Source: Isoptericola jiangsuensis
Lineage (GTDB): Bacteria > Actinomycetota > Actinomycetes > Actinomycetales > Cellulomonadaceae
DNA: 64,000 nt
Assembly (NCBI RefSeq): GCF_002563715.1
Contig: NZ_PDJJ01000001.1
Span: 620,001-684,000 of the forward strand
Reading direction: 5' to 3'
Each line of letters starts with the position of its first letter. Position 1 is the stretch's first letter. Made by a program: the position numbers and the translations under genes. Under the pieces are notes generated by a model that was given only the letters and a program-made list of their open reading frames with translations, did not search any database and was not told where the DNA came from. Below are positions 31,223-47,467 of the stretch, one piece after another.

Positions 31223-33412
31223 ATGTCCCGCACCACCCCCGTGACCGCCGCGCGCCCCGACGCCGGCGCCCCGCGCGCCGCGGTCGGCGGCGGCGGGAAC
31301 CGCGCCGACATCCAGGGACTGCGCGCCCTCGCGGTCGCGGCCGTGGTCGTGTTCCACCTGTGGCCGGGCGTCCTGACCGGCGGGTACGTCGGCGTCGACG
31401 TGTTCTTCGTGCTGTCCGGGTTCCTCATCACCAGCCACCTCGTGCGCCGGCCCGTCGGCTCGCCCCGGGCGCTGGCCGACTTCTGGGCGCGGCGCGTGCG
31501 GCGCCTCATCCCCGCCGCGACCCTCGTGCTCGCCCTGACCCTCGTCGCGGCCGTCGTCTGGCTGCCGTCCACCGTGCTCGCCGGGACGGCGCGCGAGGTC
31601 GCCGCCTCCGCCCTCTACGTCGAGAACTGGCACCTCGCCCGGTCCGAGGCCGACTACCTCGCGGCCGACCAGGCGCACTCGCCCGTCCAGCACTACTGGT
31701 CGCTGTCCATCGAGGAGCAGTTCTACCTGCTGTGGCCCGTGCTCCTGGGCGCCGCCACCTGGACCGCCCTGCGCGTGCGGCGGTCCCGGGCCCGGCGGGC
31801 GGCCGGCCCGGCGAGCGCCTCCGGGGACGTGCCGGACCAGGACGCGCGGCGGACCGCCGCCCGCACCGCGGCCCTGGTCACGGGCGTGGTCGTGGTCGCG
31901 TCCCTCGCCCGCTCCGTCCAGCTCACGGCCGCCGAGCCCGCCGCCGCCTACTTCGTGTCCACCACCCGGTTCTGGGAGCTCGGCCTCGGTGGTCTCCTCG
32001 CCGCGCTGCTGGCGCTGCGCACCACCGCCGGCCGGCCCGAGGTCCCGGACGGTCCGGCCGCGCGGGTCCTGCGGCCCGTCGCCGCGTGGGCCGGGCTCGC
32101 GATGATCGTCGTCGCCTGCCTCACGTTCGACGCCGACACCCCGTTCCCCGGCACCGCAGCCCTGCTGCCGACCGTCGGCACCGCGCTCGTCGTCGCCGCG
32201 GCCGCCGACCCGCTGCGCGGCGGACCCGGGCGCCTGCTCGGACGCCGGCCCGTGCAGTGGCTGGGCGACGCCTCCTACTCCGTCTACCTGTGGCACTGGC
32301 CCCTCGTCGTCATCGTGCCCGTCGCCCTCGACACCGACGGCCCGCTCGTCATGGTCGGCGTGCTGGCCGCCACCCTCGGGCTCGCCGCGCTGTCCCGCAC
32401 CTGGGTCGAGGAACGCCTGCGGCACCACCCCCTCCTGGTGCGCCGTCGTGCCGCCACGTTCGTGCTGCTCGCCGTGTGCGTCGGCGTCGTCGCCGGCGCC
32501 GGGACGGTCGTCGCGCAGCGCACGGAGACCGCCCAGCGGGAGGCCGCCGCCGCGTTCGCCGTCGCCGTCGAGGAGGCCGGTGACTGCCTCGGCGCCACGG
32601 TCGAGCGCGACCCGTCCTGCCCGCGGCCCGCCTTCGTCACCCCGCCGCTCGTCGCCGCCGAGGACCGGCCCGTCGTCTACGCCGACGGCTGCTGGAACAA
32701 CACCCCGTTCACCACCCGGAACACCTGCACCTACGGGCCCGCCGACGCGACCACGCGGATCGCGCTCGTCGGGAACTCCCACGCCGGGCACTGGGTGCCC
32801 GCCCTCACCGACGCCCTCGACACCGAGGGGTGGCGGCTCACCACCTACCTCCAGTCGGTCTGCTACACCGTCGACGACCTGCTCGACATCGAGGGCACCG
32901 GCGTCGCGGAGAGCTGCCGCGACACCAACCGGTGGGCCGTCGACCAGGTCGTCACGGGCGGCTACGACCTCGTCGTGCTGTCCGACCGGACGAACCAGCC
33001 GCTGGCCGACATGCCCGAGGACGAGCAGGAGGCCGCCGCGCAGGCCGCCTACGCCGAGACGCTCGCGGCCTTCACGGACGCCGGGATCCCCGTGCTCGTG
33101 CTGCGCGACACCCCGGCGATGCCCGCGGACGTGCCCGACTGCGTGGCGCTCCACCCCGACGACCTCGACCGGTGCGGCGCCCCGCCCGCCGTCGCGCTCG
33201 AGCCCGACCCGCTGGCCGCCGCGGCCGCCGCGGACACCACCGGGCTGGTGTCCGTCACGAGCGTCGAGGACCTCATGTGCGACCCGGACCTCTGCCACGC
33301 CGTCGTCGGCGGTCTCGTGGCCTACTTCGACCACGGTCATCTCACCGCGACGTTCGCCCGCACCCTCGCGCCCGAGGTGACCGGCGCCGTCCGCGACCGC
33401 CTCGCCGGCTGA
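31223..33412 (+). CDS. OafA/YrhL-type membrane acyltransferase with C-terminal SGNH domain
   Basis: A 729-aa protein. The N-terminal acyltransferase-3 domain (about residues 20-400, ten or more helices) starts ADIQGLRALAVAAVVVFH with the active-site His and contains YVGVDVFFVLSGFLI and HYWSLSIEEQFYLLWP. The C-terminal SGNH hydrolase-like domain has Ser519 in GNSHAGHW and a late HGHLT segment. It should O-acetylate a cell-surface glycan or peptidoglycan by passing acyl groups across the membrane to the SGNH domain. The ATG at 31223 is 7 nt after TAGGGT (31210-31215); a GTG at 31214 would lie inside that -10 and is rejected. Confidence 0.87.
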   Translation: MSRTTPVTAARPDAGAPRAAVGGGGNRADIQGLRALAVAAVVVFHLWPGVLTGGYVGVDVFFVLSGFLITSHLVRRPVGSPRALADFWARRVRRLIPAATLVLALTLVAAVVWLPSTVLAGTAREVAASALYVENWHLARSEADYLAADQAHSPVQHYWSLSIEEQFYLLWPVLLGAATWTALRVRRSRARRAAGPASASGDVPDQDARRTAARTAALVTGVVVVASLARSVQLTAAEPAAAYFVSTTRFWELGLGGLLAALLALRTTAGRPEVPDGPAARVLRPVAAWAGLAMIVVACLTFDADTPFPGTAALLPTVGTALVVAAAADPLRGGPGRLLGRRPVQWLGDASYSVYLWHWPLVVIVPVALDTDGPLVMVGVLAATLGLAALSRTWVEERLRHHPLLVRRRAATFVLLAVCVGVVAGAGTVVAQRTETAQREAAAAFAVAVEEAGDCLGATVERDPSCPRPAFVTPPLVAAEDRPVVYADGCWNNTPFTTRNTCTYGPADATTRIALVGNSHAGHWVPALTDALDTEGWRLTTYLQSVCYTVDDLLDIEGTGVAESCRDTNRWAVDQVVTGGYDLVVLSDRTNQPLADMPEDEQEAAAQAAYAETLAAFTDAGIPVLVLRDTPAMPADVPDCVALHPDDLDRCGAPPAVALEPDPLAAAAAADTTGLVSVTSVEDLMCDPDLCHAVVGGLVAYFDHGHLTATFARTLAPEVTGAVRDRLAG

Positions 33413-33492
33413 CGCGAGCCAGCGCAGCGTCCTGCGGGTCAGCGCACAGCAGCGCGAGTCAGCGCAGGCTCCCGCGAGTCAGCGCGGCGGTG
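33413..33492. repeat. 20-bp tandem repeat array A (4 units)
   Basis: Four consecutive 20-bp units start at 33413, 33433, 33453 and 33473, matching consensus CGCGA[C/G]TCAGCGCAGRTTCC with decay at the first two and the last. The array begins at the base after the acyltransferase stop and runs into the end of the convergent gene at 33479, whose TGA stop (33479-33481) lies inside unit 4. It is the same family as arrays B (37047) and C (45961). Confidence 0.85.
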
Positions 33493-34174
33493 GCGGGTGC
33501 AGCAGCGAGCGGATCGGACGCGTGACGATGTCGACGCGGTCGACCAGGTCGCCCGGCCCCGTGACGACGATCGCCCGCCCGCGCGCCGTCACGTGCACCG
33601 CCACGACGTCGCGCACCTCCACCCGCGTCGCGGGGCGCGGCTGACCGTCCACGCGCAGCTCGCCGGTCTCCAGCGGCACCGCGTCGACCTCCGCGACGAT
33701 CGCCCGCATGGCGGAGCGGTAGTCGGCGAACCCGTCCGCGAAGTCCGGCACCGCGGGGTCGCCGTCGGCCTCCACGGGGGCGGCGATGTCGGCGTGCAGG
33801 GGTGCGGCCAGCGCCCCGCTGCACGCGGCCCGCACGACGTCCTCGACGAGGTCGTCGGTCACCTCCGAGCGCAGCGTCTCGACCTCGAACGCCTCGCCCG
33901 CGAACGTGCGGTACGACCGCACGAACCGGTCCGACGTCGGGTCGACGCGGTGCTCGTCGCCCGTGAGGGCCTCGTCCTCCAGGTCCAGGCCCCAGGTGAG
34001 CGGGTCGTCGACCTCGCCCACGACGCCCGAGAACTGCGCCATCCGTTCGTCCACGACGTCGTGCGGACCCACGGACGGCAGCCCGTGCCGTTCGGCGTCC
34101 GTCGGTGTCGACGCGGCGGCGTCCCCCTCGCGTCCGGTGTCGTCGTGCCCTGCGTCCCGTCCGACGTCGTCCAT
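33479..34174 (-). CDS. Hypothetical protein divergent from clpC
   Basis: A 231-aa soluble, strongly acidic protein. Its first 45 residues are disordered (Asp/Gly/Ala-rich). The later part carries blocks such as FVRSYRTFAGEAFEVETLRSE and a C-terminal segment ending RPIRSLLHPPPP. No membrane segment or catalytic motif is recognised. The ATG at 34174 follows GGGAGGTCC. It shares a 207-bp divergent promoter region with clpC, and its stop codon falls within tandem-repeat array A. Confidence 0.6.
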   Translation of the reverse strand: MDDVGRDAGHDDTGREGDAAASTPTDAERHGLPSVGPHDVVDERMAQFSGVVGEVDDPLTWGLDLEDEALTGDEHRVDPTSDRFVRSYRTFAGEAFEVETLRSEVTDDLVEDVVRAACSGALAAPLHADIAAPVEADGDPAVPDFADGFADYRSAMRAIVAEVDAVPLETGELRVDGQPRPATRVEVRDVVAVHVTARGRAIVVTGPGDLVDRVDIVTRPIRSLLHPPPPR

Positions 34175-34254
34175 GGCGGACCTCCCGGTGAGCGTGACCT
34201 CTTGCACAGACCTTGCCCTTCCATCGTCTCGCTCGGCAACGGGGCACGCCGTCA

Positions 34255-34312
34255 CGCCCCTGGCGAACAAGGGCATTCCGAGGGGGTCGGGCGGGTTCGC
34301 ACCGCATAGAGT
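34255..34312 (+). promoter_or_regulatory. ClgR-box match and -10 element of clpC
   Basis: On the minus strand 34268-34255 reads GTTCGC-CAGGG-GCG, an exact match to the GTTCGC-N5-GCG site described for the actinobacterial activator ClgR. A -10-like TAGAGT lies at 34307-34312, about 45 bp downstream of the box centre and 70 bp before the clpC ATG, a distance suited to activation. No good -35 is visible, as expected for an activator-dependent promoter. Confidence 0.55.
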
Positions 34313-34381
34313 CGTAGCGGTCAGGCTGTCGCCGTCATCTCCGACGGGGTGCAGGAAAAGCCGCTCGTGAGGGAGCAGCAC

Positions 34382-36949
34382 ATGTTCGAGAGATTTACGG
34401 ACCGAGCCCGTCGGGTGGTCGTCCTCGCTCAGGAAGAGGCGAGGATGCTCAACCACAACTACATCGGCACGGAGCACATCCTGCTCGGCCTCATCCACGA
34501 GGGTGAGGGCGTGGCCGCGAAGGCGCTGGAGTCGCTGGGCATCTCGCTCGACGGCGTGCGCGCGCAGGTCACCGAGATCATCGGCGAGGGCCAGCAGGCC
34601 CCCAGCGGGCACATCCCGTTCACGCCGCGTGCCAAGAAGGTGCTGGAGCTGTCGCTGCGCGAGGCGCTGCAGCTCGGCCACAACTACATCGGCACCGAGC
34701 ACATCCTGCTCGGCCTCATCCGCGAGGGCGAGGGTGTCGCGGCGCAGGTGCTCACCAAGATGGGCGCCGACCTCAACAAGGTGCGCCAGCAGGTCATCCA
34801 GCTGCTGTCCGGCTACCAGGGCAAGGAGCCGGTCGCGGCCGGCGGCCCGGCCGAGGGCCAGCCGTCCGGCTCGGCCGTGCTCGACCAGTTCGGGCGCAAC
34901 CTCACCCAGGCCGCCCGCGAGGGCAAGCTGGACCCGGTGATCGGGCGCACGCAGGAGATCGAGCGCGTCATGCAGGTCCTGTCGCGCCGCACCAAGAACA
35001 ACCCGGTGCTGATCGGCGAGCCCGGCGTCGGCAAGACGGCGGTCGTCGAGGGTCTCGCCCAGGACATCGTCCGCGGCGACGTCCCCGAGACGCTGAAGGA
35101 CAAGCAGCTGTACACGCTCGACCTCGGCGCGCTGGTGGCCGGGTCGCGCTACCGCGGTGACTTCGAGGAGCGCCTGAAGAAGGTCCTCAAGGAGATCCGC
35201 ACCCGCGGCGACATCATCCTGTTCATCGACGAGATCCACACCCTCGTCGGGGCGGGTGCCGCTGAAGGAGCGATCGACGCCGCCAGCATCCTCAAGCCGA
35301 TGCTGGCCCGCGGCGAGCTCCAGACCATCGGTGCGACCACGCTCGACGAGTACCGCAAGCACGTCGAGAAGGACCCGGCCCTGGAGCGTCGCTTCCAGCC
35401 GATCCAGGTCAACGAGCCGTCCCTCGAGCACGCCATCGAGATCCTCAAGGGCCTGCGCGACCGCTACGAGGCGCACCACCGCGTGTCCATCACGGACTCC
35501 GCGCTGGTCTCCGCCGCGCAGCTCGCCGACCGGTACATCAACGACCGGTACCTCCCGGACAAGGCGATCGACCTCATCGACGAGGCGGGCGCGCGCCTGC
35601 GCATCCGTCGCATGACCGCCCCGCCGGAGCTCAAGGAGCTCGACGAGGAGATCGCCGAGGCACGCCGCGAGAAGGAGTCGGCGATCGACGAGCAGGACTT
35701 CGAGAAGGCCGCCGGCCTGCGTGACACCGAGAAGCGGCTCACGCAGCAGCGCGCCGACAAGGAGAAGGCCTGGAAGTCGGGCGACCTCGACACGGTCGCG
35801 GAGGTGGACGACGAGCTCATCGCCGAGGTGCTGGCGATGTCGACAGGCATCCCGGTCATCAAGCTCACCGAGGAGGAGTCGAGCAAGCTCCTGCACATGG
35901 AGGACGAGCTGCACAAGCGCGTCGTCGGGCAGGACATCGCGATCAAGGCGCTCTCCCAGGCGATCCGTCGCACCCGTGCCGGCCTCAAGGACCCGAAGCG
36001 TCCCGGCGGCTCGTTCATCTTCGCCGGCCCCACCGGCGTCGGGAAGACCGAGCTCGCCAAGGCGCTCGCCGAGTTCCTGTTCGGTGACGAGGACGCGCTC
36101 ATCCAGCTCGACATGTCCGAGTTCTCGGAGAAGCACACGGTCTCGCGGCTGTTCGGCTCGCCCCCCGGCTACGTCGGGTACGACGAGGGTGGCCAGCTCA
36201 CCGAGAAGGTGCGTCGTCGTCCGTTCTCCGTCGTCCTGTTCGACGAGGTGGAGAAGGCGCACGCCGACATCTTCAACTCGCTGCTGCAGGTGCTCGAGGA
36301 CGGCCGTCTCACCGACTCCCAGGGTCGCGTGGTCGACTTCAAGAACACCGTCATCATCATGACGACGAACCTCGGCACGCGGGACATCGCCAAGGGCGTC
36401 CAGACCGGCTTCAACGCCGGCGGCGACCTGGTGACGTCCTACGAGCGGATGAAGGCGAAGGTCAACGAGGAGCTCAAGCAGCACTTCCGGCCCGAGTTCC
36501 TCAACCGTGTCGACGACACCGTCGTGTTCCCGCAGCTCTCCCAGGACGAGATCATCCAGATCGTCGACCTGGAGATCGCGAAGCTGGACAAGCGTCTGCG
36601 CGACAAGGACATGGGCATCGAGCTCACCCAGGCCGCGAAGAACCTGCTCGCCGAGAAGGGCTACGACCCGGTCCTCGGTGCGCGTCCGCTGAAGCGGGCC
36701 ATCCAGCGGGAGATCGAGGACACCCTGTCCGAGAAGATCCTGTTCGGCGACCTGCGTCCGGGCCAGCTCGTGCTGGTCGACGGCGAGGGCGAGGGCATCC
36801 TCGGGGAGTTCACGTTCCGCGGGGTCGACAAGGCCGAGCACGAGCGCGGCCCGGTCTCGGTCGGCGCCGCCTCGGCGCTCGACGCCCCGACGGGCGTGTC
36901 CGTGAAGGACCTCCCGCCGACCGGTCAGATGCAGGCCGGCGCGGAGTGA
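34382..36949 (+). CDS. clpC: ATP-dependent Clp protease ATP-binding subunit ClpC
   Basis: An 855-aa Hsp100 unfoldase that feeds ClpP. Two Clp-N repeats (about residues 1-145) each contain [17 protein letters not shown]+ module 1 has Walker A GEPGVGKT at 212-219. A UVR/coiled-coil middle domain (about 410-480, ending in short heptads) follows, then AAA+ module 2 with Walker A GPTGVGKT at 549-556 and [15 protein letters not shown]. The IGF-type ClpP-binding loop region is in module 2. The ATG at 34382 follows GAGGGAG; the open frame extends 11 codons upstream but has no ribosome site. Probably ClgR-activated, as in related genera. Confidence 0.97.
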
Positions 36950-36990
36950 CCCCGACCGTCGGCTGACGGTCCGGACCACCTCCGGAGCTC

Positions 36991-37029
36991 GAAGGCCCCG
37001 GACCCTCCTCACAAGGGTCCGGGGCCTTC
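36991..37029. terminator. Terminator after clpC
   Basis: GAAGGCCCCGGACCCT (36991-37006), a 7-nt loop, AGGGTCCGGGGCCTTC (37014-37029): a perfect 16-bp stem 41 bp after the clpC stop, immediately before tandem-repeat array B. There is no U-tract. Confidence 0.82.
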
Positions 37030-37046
37030 GCCGTGCCCGCCGCCTC

Positions 37047-37166
37047 CGCGAGTCGGCGCAGGTTCCCGCGACTCAGCGCAGGTTCCCGCGACTCAGCGCT
37101 CGACGGCGCGAGTCAGCGCAGATGCCCGCGACTCAGCGCAGGTTCCCGCGACTCGGCGCGGGACCG
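37047..37166. repeat. 20-bp tandem repeat array B (6 units)
   Basis: Six units of exactly 20 bp start at 37047, 37067, 37087, 37107, 37127 and 37147. Units 2 and 5 are identical; the others differ at 1-6 positions, mostly in the 3' half. The conserved core is CGCGA[C/G]TC[A/G]GCGC. The array fills the space between the clpC terminator and the stop of the convergent rhodanese gene (37177). Confidence 0.92.
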
Positions 37167-37176
37167 TCGCCGACGG

Positions 37177-37626
37177 TCAGCGGACGTTCGTCAGCGGGTC
37201 CACGACGGGGTGCCGGAGGGTCCCGTCGCCCGTCTCGACGGTGAACCCCTCCCGCACCCAGTACTCGTAGCCGCCCAGCATCTCCTTGACGCGGTAGCCG
37301 AGGGTGGCGAAGGCGAGCGCTCCGCGGGTGGCGCCGTTGCAGCCCGGACCCCAGCAGTAGGTGACGACGGGCAGGTCGGGGTCGATCAGCCCGGCGGCCC
37401 GCAGCCGCACCTTGCCGCCGGGCAGGTGCACGGCGCCGGGGAGGTGACCGGCGTCCCAGGCCTCCGCCGAGCGCACGTCGACGAGGGTGAACGCCTCGCC
37501 GGCCGCGACGGCGGCGTGGACGTCGGAGACGTCGGTCTCGACGGCGAGGCGCGCCGCGAAGTGCGCCGCGACGGTCGCGGGGTCGAGGTCGGGGGCGAAG
37601 CCGAGGTGAGAGGTCGTGATCTCCAT
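37177..37626 (-). CDS. Single-domain rhodanese-like protein
   Basis: A 149-aa rhodanese. It has FTLVDVRSAEAWDAGHLPGAVHLP (the CH2A-type motif) and an active-site loop CNGATR whose cysteine is residue 96, with a second cysteine at 91. It may carry persulfide sulfur or act in cyanide/thiosulfate detoxification. It is transcribed divergently from the GlxA-type regulator across a 70-bp gap that includes a GATCG-T-CGATC palindrome (37632-37642), so joint control is possible. Confidence 0.85.
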   Translation of the reverse strand: MEITTSHLGFAPDLDPATVAAHFAARLAVETDVSDVHAAVAAGEAFTLVDVRSAEAWDAGHLPGAVHLPGGKVRLRAAGLIDPDLPVVTYCWGPGCNGATRGALAFATLGYRVKEMLGGYEYWVREGFTVETGDGTLRHPVVDPLTNVR

Positions 37627-37696
37627 GCGTCGATCGTCGATCAGCCCGCCGGGCAGGAGAAGTGGCGTGGACGCCGACGACCGCTAAGATCCCGCC

Positions 37697-38716
37697 ATGC
37701 GCCAGCCCGACCCCGCCCCGCGCCCGCTGCCGGCACCGGGCCGCCCGCACCGGGTCGCCGTGCTGGTCACGCCGGGCATGGCGCCGTTCGAGACCGGCGC
37801 CGTCGTCGAGGTGTTCGGCCTGCCCCGACCGGAGGTGTCGGGCCCCTGGTACGCGCTCGACGTGTGCACGCCGGACCCGGACCGTCCGGTGGCGATGGTC
37901 GGCGGACTCTCGGTGACGGTGGCGCACGGCCTGGACGTCCTCACGCGGGCGGACACCGTCATCGTGCCCGCCACGGTGGACGTCCGTACCGGGCCCGAGC
38001 CGCGCGTCGTCGACGCGGTCCGCCGGGCCGCCGAGCGTGGCGCCCGCGTGGTGTCCATCTGCTCGGGGGCGTTCACCCTGGCGGCCGCGGGCCTGCTCGA
38101 CGGTCGCCGGGCGACGACCCACTGGCGGTACGCGGACGAGTTCCGCCGCCGGTTCCCCGCCGTCGAGCTGGACCCGGACGTGCTGTGGGTCGACCACGGG
38201 GACGTCCTGACCAGCGCGGGCAGCGCCGCGGGGATCGACCTGTGCCTGCACCTGGTGCGCTCCGACCACGGGTCGGTCGTGGCGAACACGGTCGCGCGGA
38301 GGCTCGTGGTGCCGCCGCACCGGGACGGCGGCCAGGCGCAGTTCGTCGACGCGCCCGTGCCGGACGCGGCCGGGACCGACGGCGTGTCCCTGGCGATGGC
38401 GGCGGTCCTGCGGGACGTCGCGGCCCCGGTGACGGTCGCGGCGATGGCCCGCACGGCCCTGATGTCGGAGCGCACGTTCCTGCGCCGGTTCACCGAGCGC
38501 ACGGGCACGTCGCCGGTGCGCTGGGTGGTGGGGCAGCGGGTGCAGGCGAGCCTGCCGCTGCTCGAGGGCACGGACCTGCCGGTCGAGGAGGTCGGTGCGG
38601 CCGTCGGCTTCGCCAGCCCGGCGACGTTCCGCCACCACTTCGGGCAGGTCCTGCGCACCTCGCCGTCCGCGTACCGGCGCACGTTCCGGCGCGACGAGAC
38701 CGCCGGGGCGGCCTGA
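37697..38716 (+). CDS. GlxA-type AraC regulator (DJ-1/PfpI sensor plus AraC HTH)
   Basis: A 339-aa transcription factor. The N-terminal DJ-1/PfpI-like domain (about residues 15-190) has the nucleophile-elbow cysteine in VVSICSGAFTLAAAGLLDGRRATTHW. The C-terminal AraC double HTH (about 230-330) includes MSERTFLRRFTERTGTSPVRW and VGFASPATFRHHF. GlxA-family members control varied catabolic genes. The likely target here is the divergent rhodanese gene. The ATG at 37697 is 6 nt after TAAGAT (37685-37690): leaderless. Confidence 0.87.
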   Translation: MRQPDPAPRPLPAPGRPHRVAVLVTPGMAPFETGAVVEVFGLPRPEVSGPWYALDVCTPDPDRPVAMVGGLSVTVAHGLDVLTRADTVIVPATVDVRTGPEPRVVDAVRRAAERGARVVSICSGAFTLAAAGLLDGRRATTHWRYADEFRRRFPAVELDPDVLWVDHGDVLTSAGSAAGIDLCLHLVRSDHGSVVANTVARRLVVPPHRDGGQAQFVDAPVPDAAGTDGVSLAMAAVLRDVAAPVTVAAMARTALMSERTFLRRFTERTGTSPVRWVVGQRVQASLPLLEGTDLPVEEVGAAVGFASPATFRHHFGQVLRTSPSAYRRTFRRDETAGAA

Positions 38717-38725
38717 GCCGGCGGC

Positions 38726-39400
38726 TCAGCGCCCCAGGAGCTCGAGCACGGTCGCGGCGAGGTCCGCCACGTCCTCGACGACGGCGAGGGCGCCGGCGCG
38801 CTCCAGCTCGCCGTCGACGGCGTACCCCCACGAGACGCCGAGGCAGCCTACGGCGTGCACGGCCGCGCCGTGGACGTCGTGCTCGCGGTCCCCGACCATG
38901 AGCACCGGCCCCGCGCCCGGCGTACCGGGGCGGGGCAGGTCGAGCGTGGCCAGCGCCCGCTCGATGACGTCCGCCTTCGTCGACGTCGACTCGTCCAGCG
39001 GTGCCCCGAAGACGGCGTCGACGAGGTCGCCCAGCCCGAACTTCGCGCAGACGGGCTGGGCGTACACCTCGGGCTTGGACGTCGCGACGGCGAGGGTGCA
39101 CCCGGCCTCGCGCAGCGCGGCCAGCGCCTCCGGGATCCCGGCGAACACGGTCGCGTCGTACATCCCGCCGTCGGCGTACACCGACCGGTAGGCCGTGACG
39201 GCCTCGCCGACACGCTCCGGCGGGACGCCGTGCGCCGGGAAGGAGTCGGTGATGGGCGGGCCGACGAACGTGCGCAGCGTCGCGGCGTCGGGCACGTCGA
39301 GCCCGAGGGTCCGGTAGGCGTGCGCGGCGGAGGACGTGATGCCGGGTGCCGAGTCCATGAGGGTGCCGTCGAGGTCGAGGAGCACGAGAGGTGAGGTCAC
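38726..39400 (-). CDS. HAD-superfamily phosphatase (phosphoglycolate phosphatase-like)
   Basis: A 224-aa HAD hydrolase. Motif I is LLDLDGTLMDS, motif II lies in LAVATSKP, the motif III Lys in TKADVIERAL and motif IV in MVGDREHDVHGA. A helical cap (about residues 15-80) makes it the C1 Gph/PpaX type, probably dephosphorylating a small phospho-metabolite. The GTG start at 39400 is 6 nt downstream of minus-strand TAGGGT (39407-39412), so it is predicted leaderless although an epimerase gene lies just upstream on the same strand. Confidence 0.85.
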   Translation of the reverse strand: MTSPLVLLDLDGTLMDSAPGITSSAAHAYRTLGLDVPDAATLRTFVGPPITDSFPAHGVPPERVGEAVTAYRSVYADGGMYDATVFAGIPEALAALREAGCTLAVATSKPEVYAQPVCAKFGLGDLVDAVFGAPLDESTSTKADVIERALATLDLPRPGTPGAGPVLMVGDREHDVHGAAVHAVGCLGVSWGYAVDGELERAGALAVVEDVADLAATVLELLGR

Positions 39401-39416
39401 GGTGCCACCCTACGGA

Positions 39417-40439
39417 TCACGGCGCGGCGGGCAGCGAGCGGGCGTGCTCGACGAGCCGGTCGAACGCCGCGTCGAGGGCGGTGTCGACCTGCTGCGCCTC
39501 CGGGTGCGCGTCGAACCAGGCGATCTGCTCCTGCGCGCCGACGTCGTAGGTGACGGTCGGGCGGAACTCCGGCACGAGCGCCGTCAGGTGGGAGCAGTCG
39601 AACACCATGGAGTGCGCCTTGTCGCCGAGCAGGCCGTCGCCGACGTCGGGCAGCACGCGGGCGATCGTCTCGGACGCGACGTGCACGATCTCCGGGTCGG
39701 GGACGCCCGCCGCCTCGCCCAGCCACGTGTAGACCTGGTCCCAGGTGGGCGCGTGGGTGCCCATGACCTGGAACGCGTCACCGATGGCGAGGGGGTGACC
39801 CAGCAGCCCGACGAACCCGACCGCGAAGTCCTCGGTGTGCGTGAGCGTCCACAGGCTGGTGCCGTCCCCGTGCACGACGACGGGCCGCCCCGCCCGCATC
39901 CGGGCGACGTCGGTCCAGCCTCCCGTGGTGGGCAGCAGCGTGCGGTCGTAGGTGTGGCTCGGGCGCACGACCGTCGCGGGGAACGCGTCCTCGCGGTGGG
40001 CGCGCACCAGGACGTCCTCGCCCGCGATCTTGTCGCGCGAGTACTGCCAGAACGGGTTGCGCAGGGGCGTGGCCTCCGTCACGGGCAGCCGGGCCGGGGG
40101 CGTCTGGTAGGCGGAGGCCGACGAGACGAAAACGTACTGGCCGGTGCGGCCCGTGAACCGGTCGACGTCGCGCGCGACGTGCTCCGGCGAGAACGCCCGG
40201 AACTGCGCGACGACGTCGAAGTCGCGCCCCGCCAGGGCGGCGTCCACGGCGTCGTGGTCGCTCGCGTCCGCGGTGAGCTGCTCGACGTCGCCGGGCAGCG
40301 GGCGCGTGGTCGACCGGCCGCGGTTGAGCACCGTGACGCGGTGGCCCTGCGCGACGGCGCGGGTGACGGACGCGGCGCTGATCACGCCGGAGCCGCCGAC
40401 GAAGAGGATGTCGAGGGGGTTGCGGGTCATGGACGCCAT
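39417..40439 (-). CDS. NAD-dependent epimerase/dehydratase (extended SDR-like)
   Basis: A 340-aa Rossmann protein. The nucleotide motif near the N-terminus reads ILFVGGSGVISAA (residues 11-23), close to GxxGxxG with Ile-Ser in place of the last Gly region. The catalytic region has SSASAYQ and YSRDKIAGED (Tyr-x-x-x-Lys). It resembles the atypical SDR group of plant CSP41/isoflavone-reductase-like epimerases; sugar-nucleotide or other substrate unknown. Two starts are possible, ATG 40439 and ATG 40430; neither has a clear ribosome site. Confidence 0.75.
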   Translation of the reverse strand: MASMTRNPLDILFVGGSGVISAASVTRAVAQGHRVTVLNRGRSTTRPLPGDVEQLTADASDHDAVDAALAGRDFDVVAQFRAFSPEHVARDVDRFTGRTGQYVFVSSASAYQTPPARLPVTEATPLRNPFWQYSRDKIAGEDVLVRAHREDAFPATVVRPSHTYDRTLLPTTGGWTDVARMRAGRPVVVHGDGTSLWTLTHTEDFAVGFVGLLGHPLAIGDAFQVMGTHAPTWDQVYTWLGEAAGVPDPEIVHVASETIARVLPDVGDGLLGDKAHSMVFDCSHLTALVPEFRPTVTYDVGAQEQIAWFDAHPEAQQVDTALDAAFDRLVEHARSLPAAP

Positions 40440-40473
40440 GCTGCCCGACGGCGGCGCGCGGCGCCGGACGGCG

Positions 40474-41241
40474 TCAGCGGGTGGCGACCGGCGCCGGGAC
40501 GGTGAGGCCCGCGGGGAGGTGGTCGGGCAGGGTGCGGGTCAGGGCGGCGAGCCGCTCGGCGCGCGCCCGCCCCGTCATCCGCTCCACCGGGGCCGTGATC
40601 GAGACCGCCGCGACGGGTCGGCCGGCGCGCAGCACCGCGACGGCGGCGCAGGCGATGCCCCGCTCGTTCTCCTCCGTCTCGCTCGCGACACCCGTGCCGC
40701 GAGCCTCGCGGACGGCCTCGCGCAGCCGGTCAGGTGTCGTCGAGGGGGTGAGGTAGGGCGCCAGCACGGCGTCGTCGTCGGTGTCCCGCAGGGGGCCGGC
40801 GGCGAGCAGCGCGCGGCCGAGGGCGGTCGTGGCGGCGGGGCGTCGGCGGCCGACGGCGGACCAGACCCGCACGGCGCGCTGCGGCTCGACCTTGTCGAGG
40901 TAGACGACCTCCTGCCCGGCGAGCACGCCGAGGTGCACCAGCTCGTCGACGTCCTCGCACAGGGCGTCCAGGGCGGGGCGCAGCAGGTCGGGCAGGTTCT
41001 CCTCGGCGAGGAACGTGCTGCTCAGCGCGAGGATCGCCGGGCCGAGCCGGTAGGCGCCGTCGTCGCACTGCTCGGCGTAGCCGCGGTGCCGGAGTGCGGC
41101 GAGCGTGCGGTGCAGCGTGGACTTGTTGGCGCCGACCTCGGCGGACAGCTCGGCGAGGGGGATCCCGGCGGCGCCGGCGCGACCGAGGGCGTCGAGGGTG
41201 AGGAGCGCTTTGTCGACGCTGCCGAGCGGGCTGGGTCCCAT
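40474..41241 (-). CDS. IclR-family regulator of the KDG/KDPG genes
   Basis: A 255-aa IclR regulator. The N-terminal winged helix (about residues 8-65) has GIPLAELSAEVGANKSTLHRTLAAL, and the C-terminal GAF-like effector domain (about 75-250) contains ENERGIACAAVAV. It is divergent from the KDPG aldolase and KDG kinase genes and separated by a nested inverted repeat, so it probably controls them and itself in response to a sugar acid such as KDG. The ATG at 41241 follows GGAAGG; the longer open frame has no such signal. Confidence 0.85.
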   Translation of the reverse strand: MGPSPLGSVDKALLTLDALGRAGAAGIPLAELSAEVGANKSTLHRTLAALRHRGYAEQCDDGAYRLGPAILALSSTFLAEENLPDLLRPALDALCEDVDELVHLGVLAGQEVVYLDKVEPQRAVRVWSAVGRRRPAATTALGRALLAAGPLRDTDDDAVLAPYLTPSTTPDRLREAVREARGTGVASETEENERGIACAAVAVLRAGRPVAAVSITAPVERMTGRARAERLAALTRTLPDHLPAGLTVPAPVATR

Positions 41242-41262
41242 GGGTACCTTCCGGTAAGGTGA

Positions 41263-41298
41263 TTTCGCAGTGAACAACAGACGTTCACCATAGCGAAA
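41263..41298. promoter_or_regulatory. Nested inverted repeat, candidate IclR operator
   Basis: The inner repeat GTGAAC (41270-41275) N7 GTTCAC (41283-41288) is enclosed by the outer repeat TTTCGC (41263-41268) ... GCGAAA (41293-41298). The element occupies the centre of the 67-bp divergent spacer. TAAGGT (41255-41260) is a possible -10 for the aldolase gene, which would put the operator just downstream of +1. Confidence 0.6.
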
Positions 41299-41308
41299 CG
41301 GAGACGAT

Positions 41309-41959
41309 ATGTCAGCCCCCGACGCCGCCGTCCTGGAGACCCTCGGCCGGCACCGCATCGTGCCCGTCGTCGTCGTCGACGGTGCCAAGCAGGGCCTCGC
41401 CCTCGCCGACGCGCTGATCGCCGGCGGCCTCCCCGTCGCCGAGATCACGCTGCGCACGGCCGGCGGGCTCGACGCCATCCGCGCCGTCGCCGCCGAACGC
41501 CCCGACGTCGTCGTCGGCGCCGGCACCGTCACCACCGCCGACCAGGTCGACGCCGTCGCCGCCGCCGGCGCCCGCTACATCGTGTCGCCCGGCCTCTCGG
41601 CGAAGGTCGTCCAGCGCGCCCAGGAGCACGGCGTCCCCGTCCTGCCCGGCGTCGCCACCCCCACCGAGATCATGGCCGCGCTCGACCTCGGCCTCCACAC
41701 CGTCAAGCTCTTCCCCGCCTCCGTCGTCGGCGGCCCCGCCGCCCTCAAGGCGTTCGCCGCACCCTTCCCCGGCCTGCGGTTCGTCCCCACCGGCGGCGTC
41801 AGCGCCGCCAACCTCGCCGACTACCTCGGCCTTCGGCCCGTCCTCGCCGTCGGCGGCTCCTGGATGGTCGACAAGTCCCTCGTCGACGCCGGCGACTGGA
41901 CCGAGATCACCCGCCGCAGCGCCGAAGCCGTCGCCCTCGTCAAGAACCAGGAGTCCTGA
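41309..41959 (+). CDS. eda: 2-keto-3-deoxy-6-phosphogluconate/4-hydroxy-2-oxoglutarate aldolase
   Basis: A 216-aa KHG/KDPG aldolase that splits KDPG into pyruvate and glyceraldehyde-3-phosphate. The Schiff-base lysine is Lys133 in HTVKLFPA and the general acid/base Glu45 in AEITLRT, at the same numbers as in the E. coli enzyme. VGAGTV and PTGGV phosphate/pyruvate-site motifs are present. The ATG at 41309 follows GGAGA. The KDG kinase gene starts 4 bp after the stop, so together they perform KDG to KDPG to C3 units, the last steps of galacturonate/pectin or Entner-Doudoroff-type catabolism. Confidence 0.93.
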   Translation: MSAPDAAVLETLGRHRIVPVVVVDGAKQGLALADALIAGGLPVAEITLRTAGGLDAIRAVAAERPDVVVGAGTVTTADQVDAVAAAGARYIVSPGLSAKVVQRAQEHGVPVLPGVATPTEIMAALDLGLHTVKLFPASVVGGPAALKAFAAPFPGLRFVPTGGVSAANLADYLGLRPVLAVGGSWMVDKSLVDAGDWTEITRRSAEAVALVKNQES

Positions 41960-41962
41960 ACC

Positions 41963-43069
41963 GTGGCCAACCCCTCCGTCACCACCCGCCCCGCCGCCGA
42001 CTGCCGCTACGACGTCGTCGCCCTCGGCGAGGTCATGCTCCGCCTCGACCCCGGCGACCGGCGCGTCCGCACCACCCGCAGCTTCGACGTCTGGGAGGGC
42101 GGCGGCGAGTACAACGTCGCCCGCGGTCTCCGCCGCGCCTTCGGGCTGCGCGGCGCCGTCGTCACCGCCCTCGCCGACAACGAGGTCGGCCGCCTCGTCG
42201 AGGACTTCATCCTCACCGGCGGCCTCGACACCTCCTGGATCCAGTGGCACCCGTACGACGGCATCGGCCGCACCGTGCGCAACGGCCTCAACTTCACCGA
42301 GCGCGGGTTCGGCGTCCGCGGCGCCGTCGGCGTCAGCGACCGCGGCAACACCGCGATCTCCCAGATGAAGCCCGACGACGTCGACTGGGACGCCCTGTTC
42401 GGCTCCGGCGTGCGCTGGCTCCACACCGGCGGCATCTTCGCCGCCCTGTCCGAGTCCGCCGCCGACGTCGCCGAGGCCGCGATGTCCGCCGCCCGCCGCC
42501 ACGGCACGATCGTGTCCTACGACCTCAACTTCCGCCCCTCCCTGTGGAAGGGCATCGGGGGCATCGAGCGCGCCCGCGAGGTCAACCAGCGCCTCGCCCA
42601 CCACGTCGACGTCATGATCGGCAACGAGGAGGACTTCACCGCCTCCCTCGGCTTCGAGGTCGAGGGCGTCGACGAGTCCCTCACCGACCTCGACACCGGC
42701 GCCTTCCGCGCCATGATCAGGACCGCGTCCGAGGCGTACCCGAACTTCCAGGTCATCGCCACCACCCTGCGCGGCGTCAAGACCGCCACCGTCAACGACT
42801 GGGGCGCCATCGCCTGGTCCCGCGCCGAAGGGTTCGTCGAGGCCACCCACCGCCCCGACCTGGAGATCTACGACCGCGTCGGCGGCGGCGACTCGTTCGC
42901 CTCCGGCCTCGCGTACGGCCTCATGGAGCTCGGGTCGCTGCAGGAGGCCGTCGAGTACGGGGCCGCGCACGGCGCCCTCGCCATGACCACCCCCGGCGAC
43001 ACGACGACGGCGAACCTCGCCGAGGTCGCCAAGCTCGCCGGCGGGGGCAGCGCGCGCGTCCAGCGCTGA
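41963..43069 (+). CDS. kdgK: 2-keto-3-deoxygluconate kinase (PfkB family)
   Basis: A 368-aa PfkB-family sugar kinase. The substrate-binding N-terminus reads VALGEVMLRLDPGDRRVRTTRSFDVWEGGGEYN in the family pattern (GE.M, GG..N), and the C-terminal signature YDRVGGGDSFASGLAYG has catalytic base Asp310. At about 50 residues longer than many PfkB kinases it fits the extended KdgK-like branch. The KDG substrate is inferred from the adjacent aldolase. The GTG start at 41963 follows AGGAG (41949-41953). Confidence 0.85.
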   Translation: MANPSVTTRPAADCRYDVVALGEVMLRLDPGDRRVRTTRSFDVWEGGGEYNVARGLRRAFGLRGAVVTALADNEVGRLVEDFILTGGLDTSWIQWHPYDGIGRTVRNGLNFTERGFGVRGAVGVSDRGNTAISQMKPDDVDWDALFGSGVRWLHTGGIFAALSESAADVAEAAMSAARRHGTIVSYDLNFRPSLWKGIGGIERAREVNQRLAHHVDVMIGNEEDFTASLGFEVEGVDESLTDLDTGAFRAMIRTASEAYPNFQVIATTLRGVKTATVNDWGAIAWSRAEGFVEATHRPDLEIYDRVGGGDSFASGLAYGLMELGSLQEAVEYGAAHGALAMTTPGDTTTANLAEVAKLAGGGSARVQR

Positions 43070-43092
43070 GCCGCCGCGGCTCGCCGCGCGCA

Positions 43093-43127
43093 GGTCGGGT
43101 GCCGGGACCGACACCCGGCACCCGACC
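43093..43127. terminator. Terminator of the eda-kdgK operon
   Basis: GGTCGGGTGCCGGG (43093-43106), loop ACCGACA, CCCGGCACCCGACC (43114-43127): a perfect 14-bp stem 23 bp after the kdgK stop. Confidence 0.8.
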
Positions 43128-43147
43128 ACGAGCGCGCCTCCCGCACC

Positions 43148-43175
43148 CTGACCGGACGCGCCCTGCCGGTATCTT
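43148..43175 (+). promoter_or_regulatory. Promoter of the aegerolysin-like/metzincin gene
   Basis: CTGACC (43148-43153), N16, TATCTT (43170-43175) lie about 70 bp before the ATG at 43242. Confidence 0.4.
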
Positions 43176-43241
43176 CCGCGCGGGCCGACGCTCCCTCTCA
43201 GGCAGCAGGCCCCTCCGGCCCGCTCGTCCGAGGAGCGACCC

Positions 43242-45914
43242 ATGGCTGCGCGCAGTGTGACCCTCAAGATCCAGAACGACCTCGACGTCGCCCTGGTGAG
43301 CGACCACGACAGCATCCAGCACGGCATCTGGGGCACCGCGCCGCCGCCGCGCATCGAGCCCGGCACCACCGGCCAAGGGGTGGCGGAGTCGAGCGGCGTC
43401 GCGACAGGCACGGAAGGCACCGTCTGGTACCGCCTCGACGTCCCGGGATCGACGGGCCTCGTGCGGTTCCACTGGGACAACCCCTTCGCGGGCAGCAACA
43501 ACTACGACCAGGACGGCCCCGCCGTCGTGAGCGTGGTCCGGCTCGGTGACGGCCGGGGCAACGACTCCACCGCGCACTGGGTCGTGGCCGACGCCTCGAC
43601 GACCGGTGACGGCATCCCCGACGCCTGGAAGACCGCCGGGGCCACGATCGACCCCGGCGGCGGCGTCGGCCCGCAGTACGTCGACCTGCCCGCGATGGGC
43701 GCCACCGTCGGCAAGCCCGACCTGTTCGTCCACCTCGACTGGATGGAGGACGGCACCCACACGCACCGGCCCACCGACGCGGCGATCAAGCTCGTCGTCG
43801 ACGCCTTCGCGGCGGCGCCGTACATCGCCCGCAACGGCGCGGTCGGCATCAACCTGCACGTCGACGCCGGCCCGAGCAGCATCATGAACTTCGGGACCGG
43901 GGCGACCTGGGGCGGACTCAGCCGAGCGGCGTCCGTCGGCGAGGTCACCCAGCTCGGCACCGGGACCGTCGACGCCGCCAACAGGCTCGTCACCTACGAC
44001 TGGACCGAGTTCGACAAGCTCAAGAACCGCACCGGCGGCGTCGTGCAGTCCGGCCGCGCGCCGATCTTCCGGTACGCCGTCGCGGCGCACCAGCTGGCCT
44101 CCTCCGGCAACAGCGGCGTCGGCCGGCTACGCGGGTCCGACTTCGTCGTCAGCCTCGGCACGTTCGTGGGCGTCACCGACCGGCAGACGGCCGGCACCTT
44201 CATGCACGAGCTCGGCCACAACCTCGGGCTCGACCACGGCGGCACGGACGCCGTGAACAACAAGCCGAACTACCCGAGCGTCATGAACTACCTCTGGCAG
44301 TTCTCCGGGGTCAGCCGCGGTGGCGCGTTCGTGGTCGACTACTCGCGGGTGGCGCTCGCCCTGCTCAAGGAGGCTGCGCTCAACGAGACCGTCGGGCTCG
44401 GACCCGGCGCGGTCGGCTACGCGACAGCCAGGTGGGTCCCGGGCGCGGGCGGGGCACCGGGCGCGTTCGTCAACGTCGCCAACGCCGCCGGGCCCGTCGA
44501 CTGGGACGCCGACGGCGCCGCGAACAAGACCGCGGTGCCCTTCGACGTCAACGGCGACGGCACGCGGACCGACCTGCAGCCGTGCAACGACTGGCTCAAC
44601 GTCAAGCTGCGGGGTGGCGCGATCGGCGCCGGCGGCTTCGCCCCGCCGCCGATGGTCACCTCCGTCCCGAGGGAGCTGACGCCCGCGGACCAGGCGCGCA
44701 TCAGGCCGCCGGACAGCACCCCGCCGGTGACCTCGGCGAGCGTCTGGCCGACGCCCAACGCCGCCGGCTGGAACCGGACCGCCGTCACCGTCACGCTCAC
44801 CGCGACCGACGACATCTCGGGCGTCGCCCGCACCGTCTACGACGTCGACGGCGTCGGGCCGACGACGTACACCTCGCCCGTGCCGATCGGCACCGAAGGC
44901 GTGCACGAGTTCGGATACTCCTCGGTCGACCACTCGCAGAACACCGAGGCGCGGCACGAGATCGCGGTCAGGCTGGACCTCACCGCGCCCGAGGTGGTGA
45001 TCAGCTACGACCCGGTCGTCGACGACCTCGTCGTCGAGGGTCGTGACGGCCTCTCCGGTGTGGTCGCGAGCCCGGTCCCGCCGACGAGCCGGTCCGACGT
45101 CGAGTGGACGCCCTTCGGCTCCGACGTCGCCGAGCTGCGGGTCTACGAGGTGCGGGACCGCGCGGACAACGTCACGACGCTCCACCTCAAGGTCCGGTGC
45201 TCGCCCTTCGCGTTCGAGGCCAGCGTGCTCGCGATCCGGTACGACGACGCCCGGTCCCGCGACCACGCACTCGACGAACGGCCACCGTCCGAGACGGAGG
45301 AGCCACGCACGGTGGGCCGCGCGAGCTCGCGCGCACCACGGAACACGATGGTGTTCGAGCGGCTCGTCGGGCGGAATGCGTCGGCACCGCTGCTCGGGGT
45401 GCGCCAGCTCGTCGCCATCGGCGCGGGCGATGCGCGCCGGACGGTGAAGGCTCGCTGGGACGCGCTCGACGACCTGACGATCCTCGTCCGCGAGTCGGGC
45501 ACGGGGACGTGCGGTCCGTGCGGACCGGACCGTGAGCGGGAGGAGCGGGAGCAGCGGGAGCGGGAGGAGCGTGAGCGGGAGGAGCGGGAGGAGCGGGAGG
45601 AGCGGGAGGAGCGGGAGCAGCGGGAGCAGCGGGAGCGGGAGGAGCGGGAGCAGCGGGAGCGGGAGGACCGTGAGCGGGAAGAGCGGGAGCGTGAGCGGGA
45701 AGAACGGGAGCGTGAGCGGGAGCGTGGTCGGACCGGGTGCTGTGGGGACGACGACGCCGGCGACGACGGGGCGCACGAGGGTGGGCGCGACGACCGCGGC
45801 AGCGACGACGCCGATGCACCGTGCGGTCCGACCGTGGTCTCCGAGACCGACCTGCGGGGACTGCTCGTGCTGCACGTGATGTCCGAGGACGGGCGTCTGC
45901 ACGTGCTCGAGTGA
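43242..45914 (+). CDS. Aegerolysin-like/metzincin metalloprotease fusion with charged helix
   Basis: An 890-aa multidomain protein. Residues about 3-115 resemble aegerolysins (HGIWGTAPPPRIEPGTTG, GTEGTVWYRLD, VRFHWDNPFAGSNNY), small membrane-lipid-binding beta-sandwiches. Residues about 120-420 hold a zinc protease with HELGHNLGLDH (His322, Glu323, His326, His332) and a Met-turn-like SVMNY (Met348), i.e. a metzincin. A beta-sandwich domain (about 490-600, TPPVTSASVWPTPNAAGW) follows. Then about 65 residues made only of Glu, Arg, Gln and Asp (about 763-829) predict a single alpha-helix or coiled coil. Last come a CC/acidic stretch and a short C-terminal strand region. No Sec signal peptide or membrane segment is visible, so export would need another route. 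The ATG at 43242 follows GAGGAG. The helix-coding DNA (45531-45726) is slippage-prone. Confidence 0.7.
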   Translation: MAARSVTLKIQNDLDVALVSDHDSIQHGIWGTAPPPRIEPGTTGQGVAESSGVATGTEGTVWYRLDVPGSTGLVRFHWDNPFAGSNNYDQDGPAVVSVVRLGDGRGNDSTAHWVVADASTTGDGIPDAWKTAGATIDPGGGVGPQYVDLPAMGATVGKPDLFVHLDWMEDGTHTHRPTDAAIKLVVDAFAAAPYIARNGAVGINLHVDAGPSSIMNFGTGATWGGLSRAASVGEVTQLGTGTVDAANRLVTYDWTEFDKLKNRTGGVVQSGRAPIFRYAVAAHQLASSGNSGVGRLRGSDFVVSLGTFVGVTDRQTAGTFMHELGHNLGLDHGGTDAVNNKPNYPSVMNYLWQFSGVSRGGAFVVDYSRVALALLKEAALNETVGLGPGAVGYATARWVPGAGGAPGAFVNVANAAGPVDWDADGAANKTAVPFDVNGDGTRTDLQPCNDWLNVKLRGGAIGAGGFAPPPMVTSVPRELTPADQARIRPPDSTPPVTSASVWPTPNAAGWNRTAVTVTLTATDDISGVARTVYDVDGVGPTTYTSPVPIGTEGVHEFGYSSVDHSQNTEARHEIAVRLDLTAPEVVISYDPVVDDLVVEGRDGLSGVVASPVPPTSRSDVEWTPFGSDVAELRVYEVRDRADNVTTLHLKVRCSPFAFEASVLAIRYDDARSRDHALDERPPSETEEPRTVGRASSRAPRNTMVFERLVGRNASAPLLGVRQLVAIGAGDARRTVKARWDALDDLTILVRESGTGTCGPCGPDREREEREQREREEREREEREEREEREEREQREQREREEREQREREDREREEREREREERERERERGRTGCCGDDDAGDDGAHEGGRDDRGSDDADAPCGPTVVSETDLRGLLVLHVMSEDGRLHVLE

Positions 45915-45960
45915 CCCGTCCCCCCTGCGGTTCTCGGCGCGGAGGGCGCGCGCAGGGCCG

Positions 45961-46080
45961 GGCTGACTCGTGCTGGGCTGCGCTGACTCGGCGGGATCTG
46001 CGCTGAGTCGCGGGAATCTGCGCTGACTCGGCGGGATCTGCGCTGAGTGGCCGGAGTCTGCGCTGAGTCGCGGGGAGCCG
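45961..46080. repeat. 20-bp tandem repeat array C (6 units, inverted orientation)
   Basis: Six 20-bp units start at 45961, 45981, 46001, 46021, 46041 and 46061. Units 2 and 4 are identical. Read on the minus strand they match the array A/B consensus, with cores CGCGACTCAGCGCAG and CCGAGTCAGCGCAG. The array sits between the metzincin gene (ends 45914) and the convergent lacI-type gene (stop at 46085). Confidence 0.9.
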
Positions 46081-46084
46081 CGCG

Positions 46085-47122: not shown

Positions 47123-47191
47123 GGGTGTCCTTTCCGGGCCTGCGGTGGCGGCCTGCGGCGCGGGCCGGCGTCGGCGCGGGGCGCGGGTCGC

Positions 47192-47234
47192 AAGTTTCGA
47201 GTTCGACTCTAGTCCCCTGCGATGTGCATGAGAA
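47192..47234 (-). promoter_or_regulatory. Promoter and candidate autoregulatory site of the lacI-type gene
   Basis: On the minus strand TTCTCA (47229-47234), N17, TAGAGT (47206-47211). Just downstream, plus-strand AAGTTTCGA (47192-47200) is followed by GTTCGA. The same AAGTTTCGA 9-mer occurs at 47404-47412 by the transporter promoter, which suggests one regulator reads both. Confidence 0.45.
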
Positions 47235-47344
47235 CTCGTGCAAACGTTGTCAGTCCGGGTGAGGGCGCTGATCAGCGGGTGAATCCGGCGTCGATGTCCT
47301 GTCAACGCCGAGATCCTGTGATCGGACCGTGATGGTTGCTTCAC

Positions 47345-47412: not shown

Positions 47413-47467
47413 ACAGTCGTGGCAGTGATGCCTCGACGTTCGCCACGATGACGTGACGGGAGCAGGT

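Follow-up and report, generated by a model that had tools for sequence, protein, structure and literature searches.

The window analyzed here, a 64,000-nucleotide stretch of Isoptericola jiangsuensis (bases 620001–684000 of a single-contig genome of 4,041,252 bp; GC 73.7%; labelled G000), holds three members of a family of head-to-tail arrays built from a 20-bp unit. Array A (33413–33492, plus strand) has 4 units and belongs to what we call the GTCAG dialect; array B (37047–37166, plus strand) has 6 units and a 60-bp higher-order period; and array C (45953–46072, minus strand, cores at 45958–46072) again has 6 units. An earlier note on this DNA had reported three arrays of 4, 6 and 6 units with a 20-bp period and a shared core, which we could reproduce: Tandem Repeats Finder (TRF) detected period 20 at A, B and C, with an additional 60-bp period in B and C, and a two-unit pattern with 6 matches in the window had none in any of 200 third-order Markov simulations. 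A loose single-unit scan of the window (≤3 mismatches) returned 28 matches against 25.4 expected, which is not above chance, so the significance resides in the tandem register. The opposite orientation of C, read on the minus strand, relative to A and B was also as described, although the frame first given for C (45961–46080) captures a real array a few bases out of phase with the other two.

Each of the three arrays lies between convergent genes, as called by our own codon model, with the domains of flanking products named from Pfam. Array A starts immediately past the stop of an acyltransferase-3/SGNH protein gene on its left (31223–33412, plus strand), and on its right the TGA stop (33479–33481) of an unassigned gene (33479–34207, minus strand) falls within unit 4; the site is thus convergent, as the note had it, but not purely intergenic. 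The left flank of array B is a clpC-type AAA+ gene (34349–36949, plus strand; Clp_N, AAA_2 and UVR domains; codon-model start 34445), which is 93–99% identical in 16/17 congeners and has no close match in the incomplete genome G408; the right flank is a rhodanese-domain gene (37177–37626, minus strand). Upstream of B lies the hairpin of the clpC terminator (36993–37027, plus strand; −32.7 kcal/mol, z −4.30), consistent with the earlier observation that B follows a complete terminator and is not itself a simple one; by eye, a comparable hairpin stands behind clpC in congeners. Array C is flanked by a long plus-strand gene of ~890 aa without a Pfam match (43257–45914) on the left and a LacI-family regulator gene (46085–47122, minus strand) on the right. 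A search with Rfam 15 at gathering score gave no match in window positions 30000–49000.

The three arrays are part of a genome-wide family. Allowing ≤1 mismatch, the 14-bp core occurs 442 times in G000 (228 forward, 214 reverse), compared with 55 times (30 and 25) for a control in which the core pattern is read backwards. We mapped 111 arrays in stretches of G000 around listed sites and in 13 array-blind 20-kb stretches, a map in which arrays without an exact core are under-sampled beyond ~0.9 Mb. The unit consists of a ~13-bp core (CGCGASTCAGCGC) and a ~7-bp linker, the 13 core positions carrying 1.1–2.0 bits of information in G000 and the 7 linker positions 0.2–0.7. Units were found via a 9-base word, and conservation at those nine core positions is partly by construction; core positions 11–13, outside the word, are C in 424, G in 403 and C in 402 of 427 G000 units, and in genomes G399 and G409, too, conservation extends beyond the search word, in a form particular to each genome. 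Core position 6 is G or C in 422/427 units (G 279, C 143, T 5, A 0). In the mapped arrays, 421/468 steps from unit to unit measure exactly 20 bp, and of the other 47, 28 measure 40 or 60; the linking rule admitted multiples of 20 ±1, and steps were therefore recounted without it, whereupon exact words lying 8–45 bp apart in G000 were spaced at 20 bp in 296/356 cases and at 40 bp in 45. At one locus (L042, ~33681–33730 of G000) the core recurs each 10 bp instead of 20. Spacers of ~30 bp are absent, and the 20-bp step with ~7-bp linkers, partly common to neighbours, bears out the view that these are not CRISPR arrays. Linkers agree better between neighbouring units (0.52) than between units of different arrays (0.39), while cores are about equally alike in both comparisons (0.88 and 0.86), indicating that arrays grow by local duplication.

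Exact cores are ~5x denser in the origin half of G000 (dnaA lies at ~57 kb), with 116/138 of them, on both strands and among the matches listed, falling outside 1.0–3.0 Mb. The orientation of arrays showed no bias by chromosome half when the chromosome was split at 2.02 Mb rather than at dnaA (24/23 and 30/33).

To describe where arrays sit, we classified the junctions between neighbouring genes. The 111 mapped G000 arrays comprise 62 at convergent, 41 at tandem and 7 at divergent junctions, with 1 undecided (a second scan gave 110 arrays: 63, 39, 7 and 1), against a background of 37 convergent, 151 tandem and 34 divergent junctions in the 13 array-blind stretches. We then considered two larger sets: a GTCAG set (G000, G396 and G405) and a GGTAG set (118 loci of a public genome collection plus G399, G409, G397 and G400). 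Arrays occupy 49/149 convergent, 31/358 tandem and 7/142 divergent junctions in the former (convergent vs tandem, p = 1e-10) and 70/204, 51/541 and 10/215 in the latter (p = 7e-15); the stretches were largely picked for their arrays, so these ratios are informative and the absolute rates are not. In four relatives sampled mostly blind, with some stretches around clpC, 16/26 arrays lie at convergent junctions vs 91/495 of all junctions (p = 1e-6). The preference for convergent junctions, on whose genome-wide presence the earlier note had staked its claim, thus holds, but the rule it reflects is one of gene 3' ends, and tandem junctions bear arrays too.

The arrays are also polar. The CGAGNYAG strand tends to coincide with the sense strand of the gene that has just ended: counting gene ends without another array between, and with G000 and G396 as the GTCAG side, we found sense:antisense ratios of 74:46 (GTCAG) and 157:61 (GGTAG), which become 32:12 and 73:25 at 0–20 bp from the stop, and 73:31 and 94:55 when arrays that enter the gene are excluded. 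Tandem junctions carry mostly sense (S) rather than antisense (A) arrays in the GGTAG set (S 32, A 4, SA 14, AS 1); in the GTCAG set the corresponding counts are S 14, A 9, SA 7 and AS 1. Where two arrays stand within ≤400 bp of each other, they face inward, plus then minus, in 45 cases vs 1 in the reverse order among the 118 public-collection loci, and in 17 vs 8 in G000. Six of the 8 minus-then-plus neighbours in G000 overlap by exactly 2 bp, forming a 24-bp near-palindrome, and of the fused joints of this kind in the sister species G396, L331, L337 and L343 lie at the same junction as in G000 and L338 has no G000 match. Arrays of one orientation are nonetheless common at convergent junctions, making up 27/49 in the GTCAG set (23/27 without any opposite unit) and 39/70 in the GGTAG set (22/39 without any).

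Some arrays reach into the genes they follow, and there the stop codon usually belongs to the array. Sense GGTAG arrays supply the TAG of the unit (47 at offset −8, 14 at −28 and 2 at −37), and antisense GTCAG arrays supply its TGA (14 at −8, 1 at −28), so the gene usually ends at an in-unit stop and encroachment by an array would be harmless. One might ask whether the arrays are a translational fail-safe, in which a step not divisible by three offers a stop in all three frames within three units. Genes do end at in-unit stops, and there is a sense TAG in GGTAG and GATAG units and an antisense TGA in GTCAG units; yet GTCAG arrays lean toward sense (74:46), the strand whose core has no stop codon, so that in-unit stops leave this bias unexplained. 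Moreover, three conserved bases would suffice for such a device, whereas ~13 are conserved, and the 21-bp step that occurs occasionally in GATAG species stays in frame. We rejected the fail-safe as inconsistent with array orientation in the GTCAG dialect and regard it as very improbable.

A polarity that follows the transcript would also suit an element read as RNA. In this alternative, transcribed arrays, above all facing pairs, would form long hairpins that end transcripts arriving from either side or shield the 3' ends of mRNAs. Facing pairs do fold far better than shuffled sequences, as inverted repeats must (mean z −9.7 for 6 G000 pairs and −11.0 for 20 GGTAG pairs), and long near-perfect inverted repeats, differing from one convergent junction to the next, were seen by eye in some congeners (L287 in G401, L298 in G406, L265 in G395, L304 in G404 and L275 in G248). 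Single arrays, by contrast, fold weakly in G000 (mean z −1.62 sense, −1.44 antisense; 45 sampled) and like shuffles in the GGTAG dialect (−0.34 and −0.26; 45 sampled), which rules out RNA structure of single arrays as the explanation for the latter; nor did single arrays resemble intrinsic terminators in their folding, and no U-run was seen by eye. The one-orientation arrays that occupy over half of the array-bearing convergent junctions in both sets likewise speak against an RNA element, and a genome-wide core is needless for a function of structure alone. We further counted independent hairpins at array junctions relative to length-matched array-free junctions, with controls for 34/44, 31/31, 30/70 and 43/49 array junctions. 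Hairpins with stem ≥8 were observed/expected at 10/11.5 (GTCAG convergent), 12/9.4 (GTCAG tandem) and 8/8.8 (GGTAG convergent), so substitution of arrays for terminators was set aside, array junctions not being clearly depleted of hairpins. GGTAG tandem array junctions alone had fewer (4/8.5 at stem ≥8; 0 vs 4.7 at stem ≥10), a shortage that would fit a transcribed 3' element. On balance, we consider an RNA-level element distinctly unlikely.

As regards conservation of place, we compared G000 with its sister G396, in which 20 sites among the matches listed resolved into 26 array clusters (the strand split among G396 matches, plus low and minus high, was taken for a listing artefact). Both flanks of 20/26 clusters are collinear with a G000 stretch, and a G000 array is present at all 20, 19 being in the G000 list from the same scan and the twentieth, L337, in a looser list; 2 further clusters matched by one flank (one over 93 bp only) and 4 had no match. 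Flanks at these common array junctions are 74–95% identical. The comparison set covers an array-rich 18% of G000, so 20 clusters are shared, yet 20/26 is not an unbiased rate. A separate set of 14 G396 arrays placed 10 at G000 array junctions, 1 by one flank and 2 where the G000 stretch has no array under the mapping rule, with 1 unmatched. In seven orthologous array pairs, core identity is 0.74–0.95, and linker identity averages 0.39; linkers of unrelated arrays agree at 0.32 between the species and at 0.39 and 0.42 within the one and the other. Copy number differs between the two, with 6 units behind clpC in G000 and 2 imperfect units in G396.

The gene content beside array C differs as well. 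At the C junction, G396 carries a facing array pair of 7 + 5 units beside lacI, whose flanks match the window at ~43.07 kb and ~46.03 kb, indicating that the long 43257–45914 gene is absent there; in the window this gene separates array C from pfkB, and the corresponding place in G396 holds the facing pair alone. Its first 758 codons match this genome only among 18 of the genus, and we suggest from these alignments that it may represent the gain (or loss) of a gene at an array site. The 3' part of the same gene, beside C, contains a coding minisatellite of the GAGCGGGAG type (45534–45696; periods 9, 15 and 24).

Places tend to be kept even where the word has changed. For gene ends that bear an array in the GGTAG set, the orthologous end in G000 has one as well in 56/77 cases, vs 33/103 for array-free ends (p = 9e-8), and the relationship holds for tandem junctions taken separately (14/20 vs 19/77, p = 3e-4). 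Behind the clpC terminator, Isoptericola sp. AK164 (G399) has its own, different 20-bp unit. These data bear on the possibility that the arrays are passive or selfish minisatellites, which would grow by slippage and recombination, be tolerated behind stop codons and acquire their dialects by gene conversion, with no reader at all. The difference in copy number behind clpC, the resemblance of adjacent linkers, the slightly closer linkers within than between species, the entry of arrays into gene ends with provision of stop codons, as expected of a harmless encroacher, and the rarity of arrays at divergent junctions would all be in keeping with this. Given the shared cores, however, conversion should spread linkers far more than we observed; passive sites would not hold a gene-relative polarity or the inward-facing order of pairs; and the same gene ends tend to bear arrays across dialects. 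The suggestion of a mobile minisatellite in the earlier note is disfavoured at this time scale, most sister clusters being at common junctions, and the passive account in general seems to us possible but rather unlikely.

The core varies by species or small group, a feature that was invisible from the window alone. We distinguished CGASTCAGCGCA (G000 and G396), CGAGTCAGGAC (G405), CGAGGTAGGCAAC (G399, also G394), CGAGGTAGCGC (G409), a core beginning CGAGGTAGT (G397 and G400) and CGAGATAGAGA, the GATAG dialect (G401 and G403). Steps of 20 bp predominate in G405 (11/12), G396 (42/51), G399 (14/18) and G409 (32/38), and 100-kb samples of G394, G248 and G404 were almost without neighbouring words. 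The exact 20-bp period claimed at first therefore stands for the GTCAG and GGTAG dialects, whereas steps of 21–22 bp in the GATAG genomes rule out a uniform step across dialects. A tree of clpC groups G405 (GTCAGGAC) with G399 (GGTAGGCAAC) as sisters (support 1.00) and away from G000 and G396, which puts the GTCAG dialect in two places; this one tree of one gene suggests that the change between GGTAG and GTCAG occurred at least twice.

A three-unit CGAGGTAG pattern was found in at least 118 stretches of the public genome collection, the best 80 of which come from Isoptericola, Krasilnikoviella flava, Oerskovia flava and one genome labelled Sphaerisporangium cinnabarinum. A generic pattern, CGAGNYAG in three units at 20 bp, matched 14/18 genomes of the genus (up to 168 matches in one), 11/203 genomes elsewhere in the family (ten with 1–9 matches, and G607 with 116) and 2/361 genomes outside the family in a sample of the order, both of the latter being 10-bp repeats. 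In G607, alone among 11 genomes of its genus, the 65 + 51 matches stand beside 6 + 15 (21) in the reversed control. The own-dialect pattern of G000 gave 0 matches in a public genome scan from which close relatives of the window may be missing, so that this zero is no evidence of rarity; G396 does have exact matches. Carriage by phages was also discounted: five matches of the generic pattern in viral contigs are apparently unrelated repeats of 10 or 20 bp (in two, the unit is a 10-bp CGAGGTAG), and the own-dialect two-unit pattern had no match in viral contigs.

Among described systems, the closest in outward form are the repetitive extragenic palindromes (REPs), including bacterial interspersed mosaic elements (BIMEs) and repeats tagged GTAG/CGTC. 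According to the parts of PMC3733652 consulted, these are short palindromes that lie outside genes, for the most part behind them, in numerous species-specific copies that are frequently paired in inverted orientation; some clusters are tandemly reiterated, most genomes have few head-tail dimers or none, and REPs of the GTAG kind are often close to genes of REP-associated tyrosine transposases (RAYTs). Our arrays share the short, extragenic, many-copy and species-specific character, the position downstream of genes near stops and the frequent inverted pairs, and one dialect contains GTAG; they differ in being long, head-tail and of fixed step, with a single unit and core that are not palindromic. 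If they were mobile repeats driven by a RAYT, such a transposase would be expected in the genus, but Y1_Tnp (PF01797, E ≤ 0.001) was detected in 0/18 genus genomes vs 5/14 control genomes, and most of the clusters examined occupy conserved positions between two species. We rejected REP-like mobility on these two grounds and find it scarcely credible. Neither 'Actinobacteria' nor 'Isoptericola' occurs in the main text of PMC3733652.

The literature search, thin on subscription journals, yielded no description of the array family, in agreement with the earlier impression that no described family matches, and a search with five core strings returned only unrelated titles among the matches listed. 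The genome of Isoptericola sp. AK164 has been reported to contain 566 tandem repeats, of which 521 are minisatellites (PMC10425560); the portions consulted count these repeats and do not describe them as a family, place them or interpret them, and as G399 this genome is among those in which we found arrays.

Three other systems invite comparison. Bacterial minisatellites, of the variable-number tandem repeat (VNTR) and mycobacterial interspersed repetitive unit (MIRU) type, are tandem units of variable copy number that lie between genes. Like them, the arrays are head-to-tail and vary in copy number between species; unlike them, the loci are not independent in sequence, with about a hundred arrays sharing one core per genome, free linkers, one step and a polarity at gene ends. 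The DNA uptake sequences (DUS) of Neisseriaceae are short genome-wide words with species dialects, read by a cognate receptor, and stand singly or in pairs, also within genes, with inverted pairs near gene ends. A genome-wide word with species dialects is found here too, but in tandem arrays at gene ends with fixed step and polarity, and with a reader that is putative. The Sal boxes bound by TTF-I behind mammalian rRNA genes are repeated, directional protein sites that stop polymerase or replication forks; the bacterial arrays resemble them in their supposed working only, again with a putative reader.

Taken together, the sharing of one word by about a hundred arrays scattered over the genome, the looser linkers, the spacing by helical turns, the polarity relative to genes and the coordinated change from species to species are best explained by a trans-acting reader, and the placement of the arrays suggests a boundary for transcription. 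We therefore propose, tentatively and at somewhat less than even confidence, that a putative co-evolving factor recognises the arrays, which would cluster its directional sites at gene 3' ends. Each ~13-bp core would be a directional recognition site read by a sequence-specific, trans-acting factor, with sites placed at gene 3' ends and foremost between converging genes; a spacing of 20 bp, or 21–22 bp in one dialect, is about two helical turns and would line the copies up along the same face of the helix. The factor would read DNA rather than RNA and serve in termination or insulation: the arrays would probably form a boundary that depends on the factor, blocking or terminating in a polar manner the transcription that leaves the gene, and so separate two converging transcription units. 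Core and factor would co-evolve, giving rise to the species dialects, while linkers and copy number would turn over quickly through local tandem duplication. The multi-site protein array that the earlier note had listed among possible roles is thus the best reading left, and its interpretation is supported in part.

Several observations weigh against this proposal. The factor itself is putative, as are its binding and the boundary role. Array junctions are about as hairpin-rich as matched array-free ones, so arrays do not plainly replace terminators. The higher similarity of linkers within species implies some genome-wide pull on linkers, as the conversion alternative expects. Polarity is weaker in the GTCAG dialect (plus-minus 16 vs minus-plus 6, p = 0.05), where single-orientation tandem junctions number 14 sense vs 9 antisense (p = 0.4), and the cross-dialect agreement of gene ends is not significant for convergent junctions taken alone (42/57 vs 14/26, p = 0.08). 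Inspection of the clpC junction by eye revealed no 20-bp array in 13 congeners, and the three-unit pattern was not found in 4/18 genus genomes. GATAG words in G401 and G403 (including L287 of G401) step by 22 bp in 9/12 cases and by 21 bp in 3/12; a step of 20–22 bp still fits two helical turns, however, so this leaves the odds of a factor-read site as they were.

Genes that converge must have their transcripts separated, and to our knowledge little is understood of how high-GC actinobacteria achieve this in places that lack a visible U-tailed terminator. If the proposal is correct, polar arrays read by a factor where genes end would be a novel way of separating convergent transcripts. A more ambitious version, which we hold to be conceivable though doubtful, is a gene-end boundary code of helically phased, species-own word arrays in which a fast-evolving factor and about a hundred arrays switched dialect together, in place and more than once within the genus; it would be the bacterial equivalent of terminator-protein sites in repeated form, with a specificity peculiar to each species, and a natural example in which the specificity of a DNA-binding factor changed simultaneously with all of its targets. 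The dialects provide a ready comparative test: since the same gene ends tend to bear different words in related species, any candidate factor has to change in step with the word. Should there be no factor, the family would still be unusual in that about a hundred scattered arrays have evolved in concert while staying in place, and it might serve as a marker for typing. Among the convergent junctions inspected, one intergenic region (L261 of G394) contains two TTTCACGTGAAAC sites, which we take to be parS-like.

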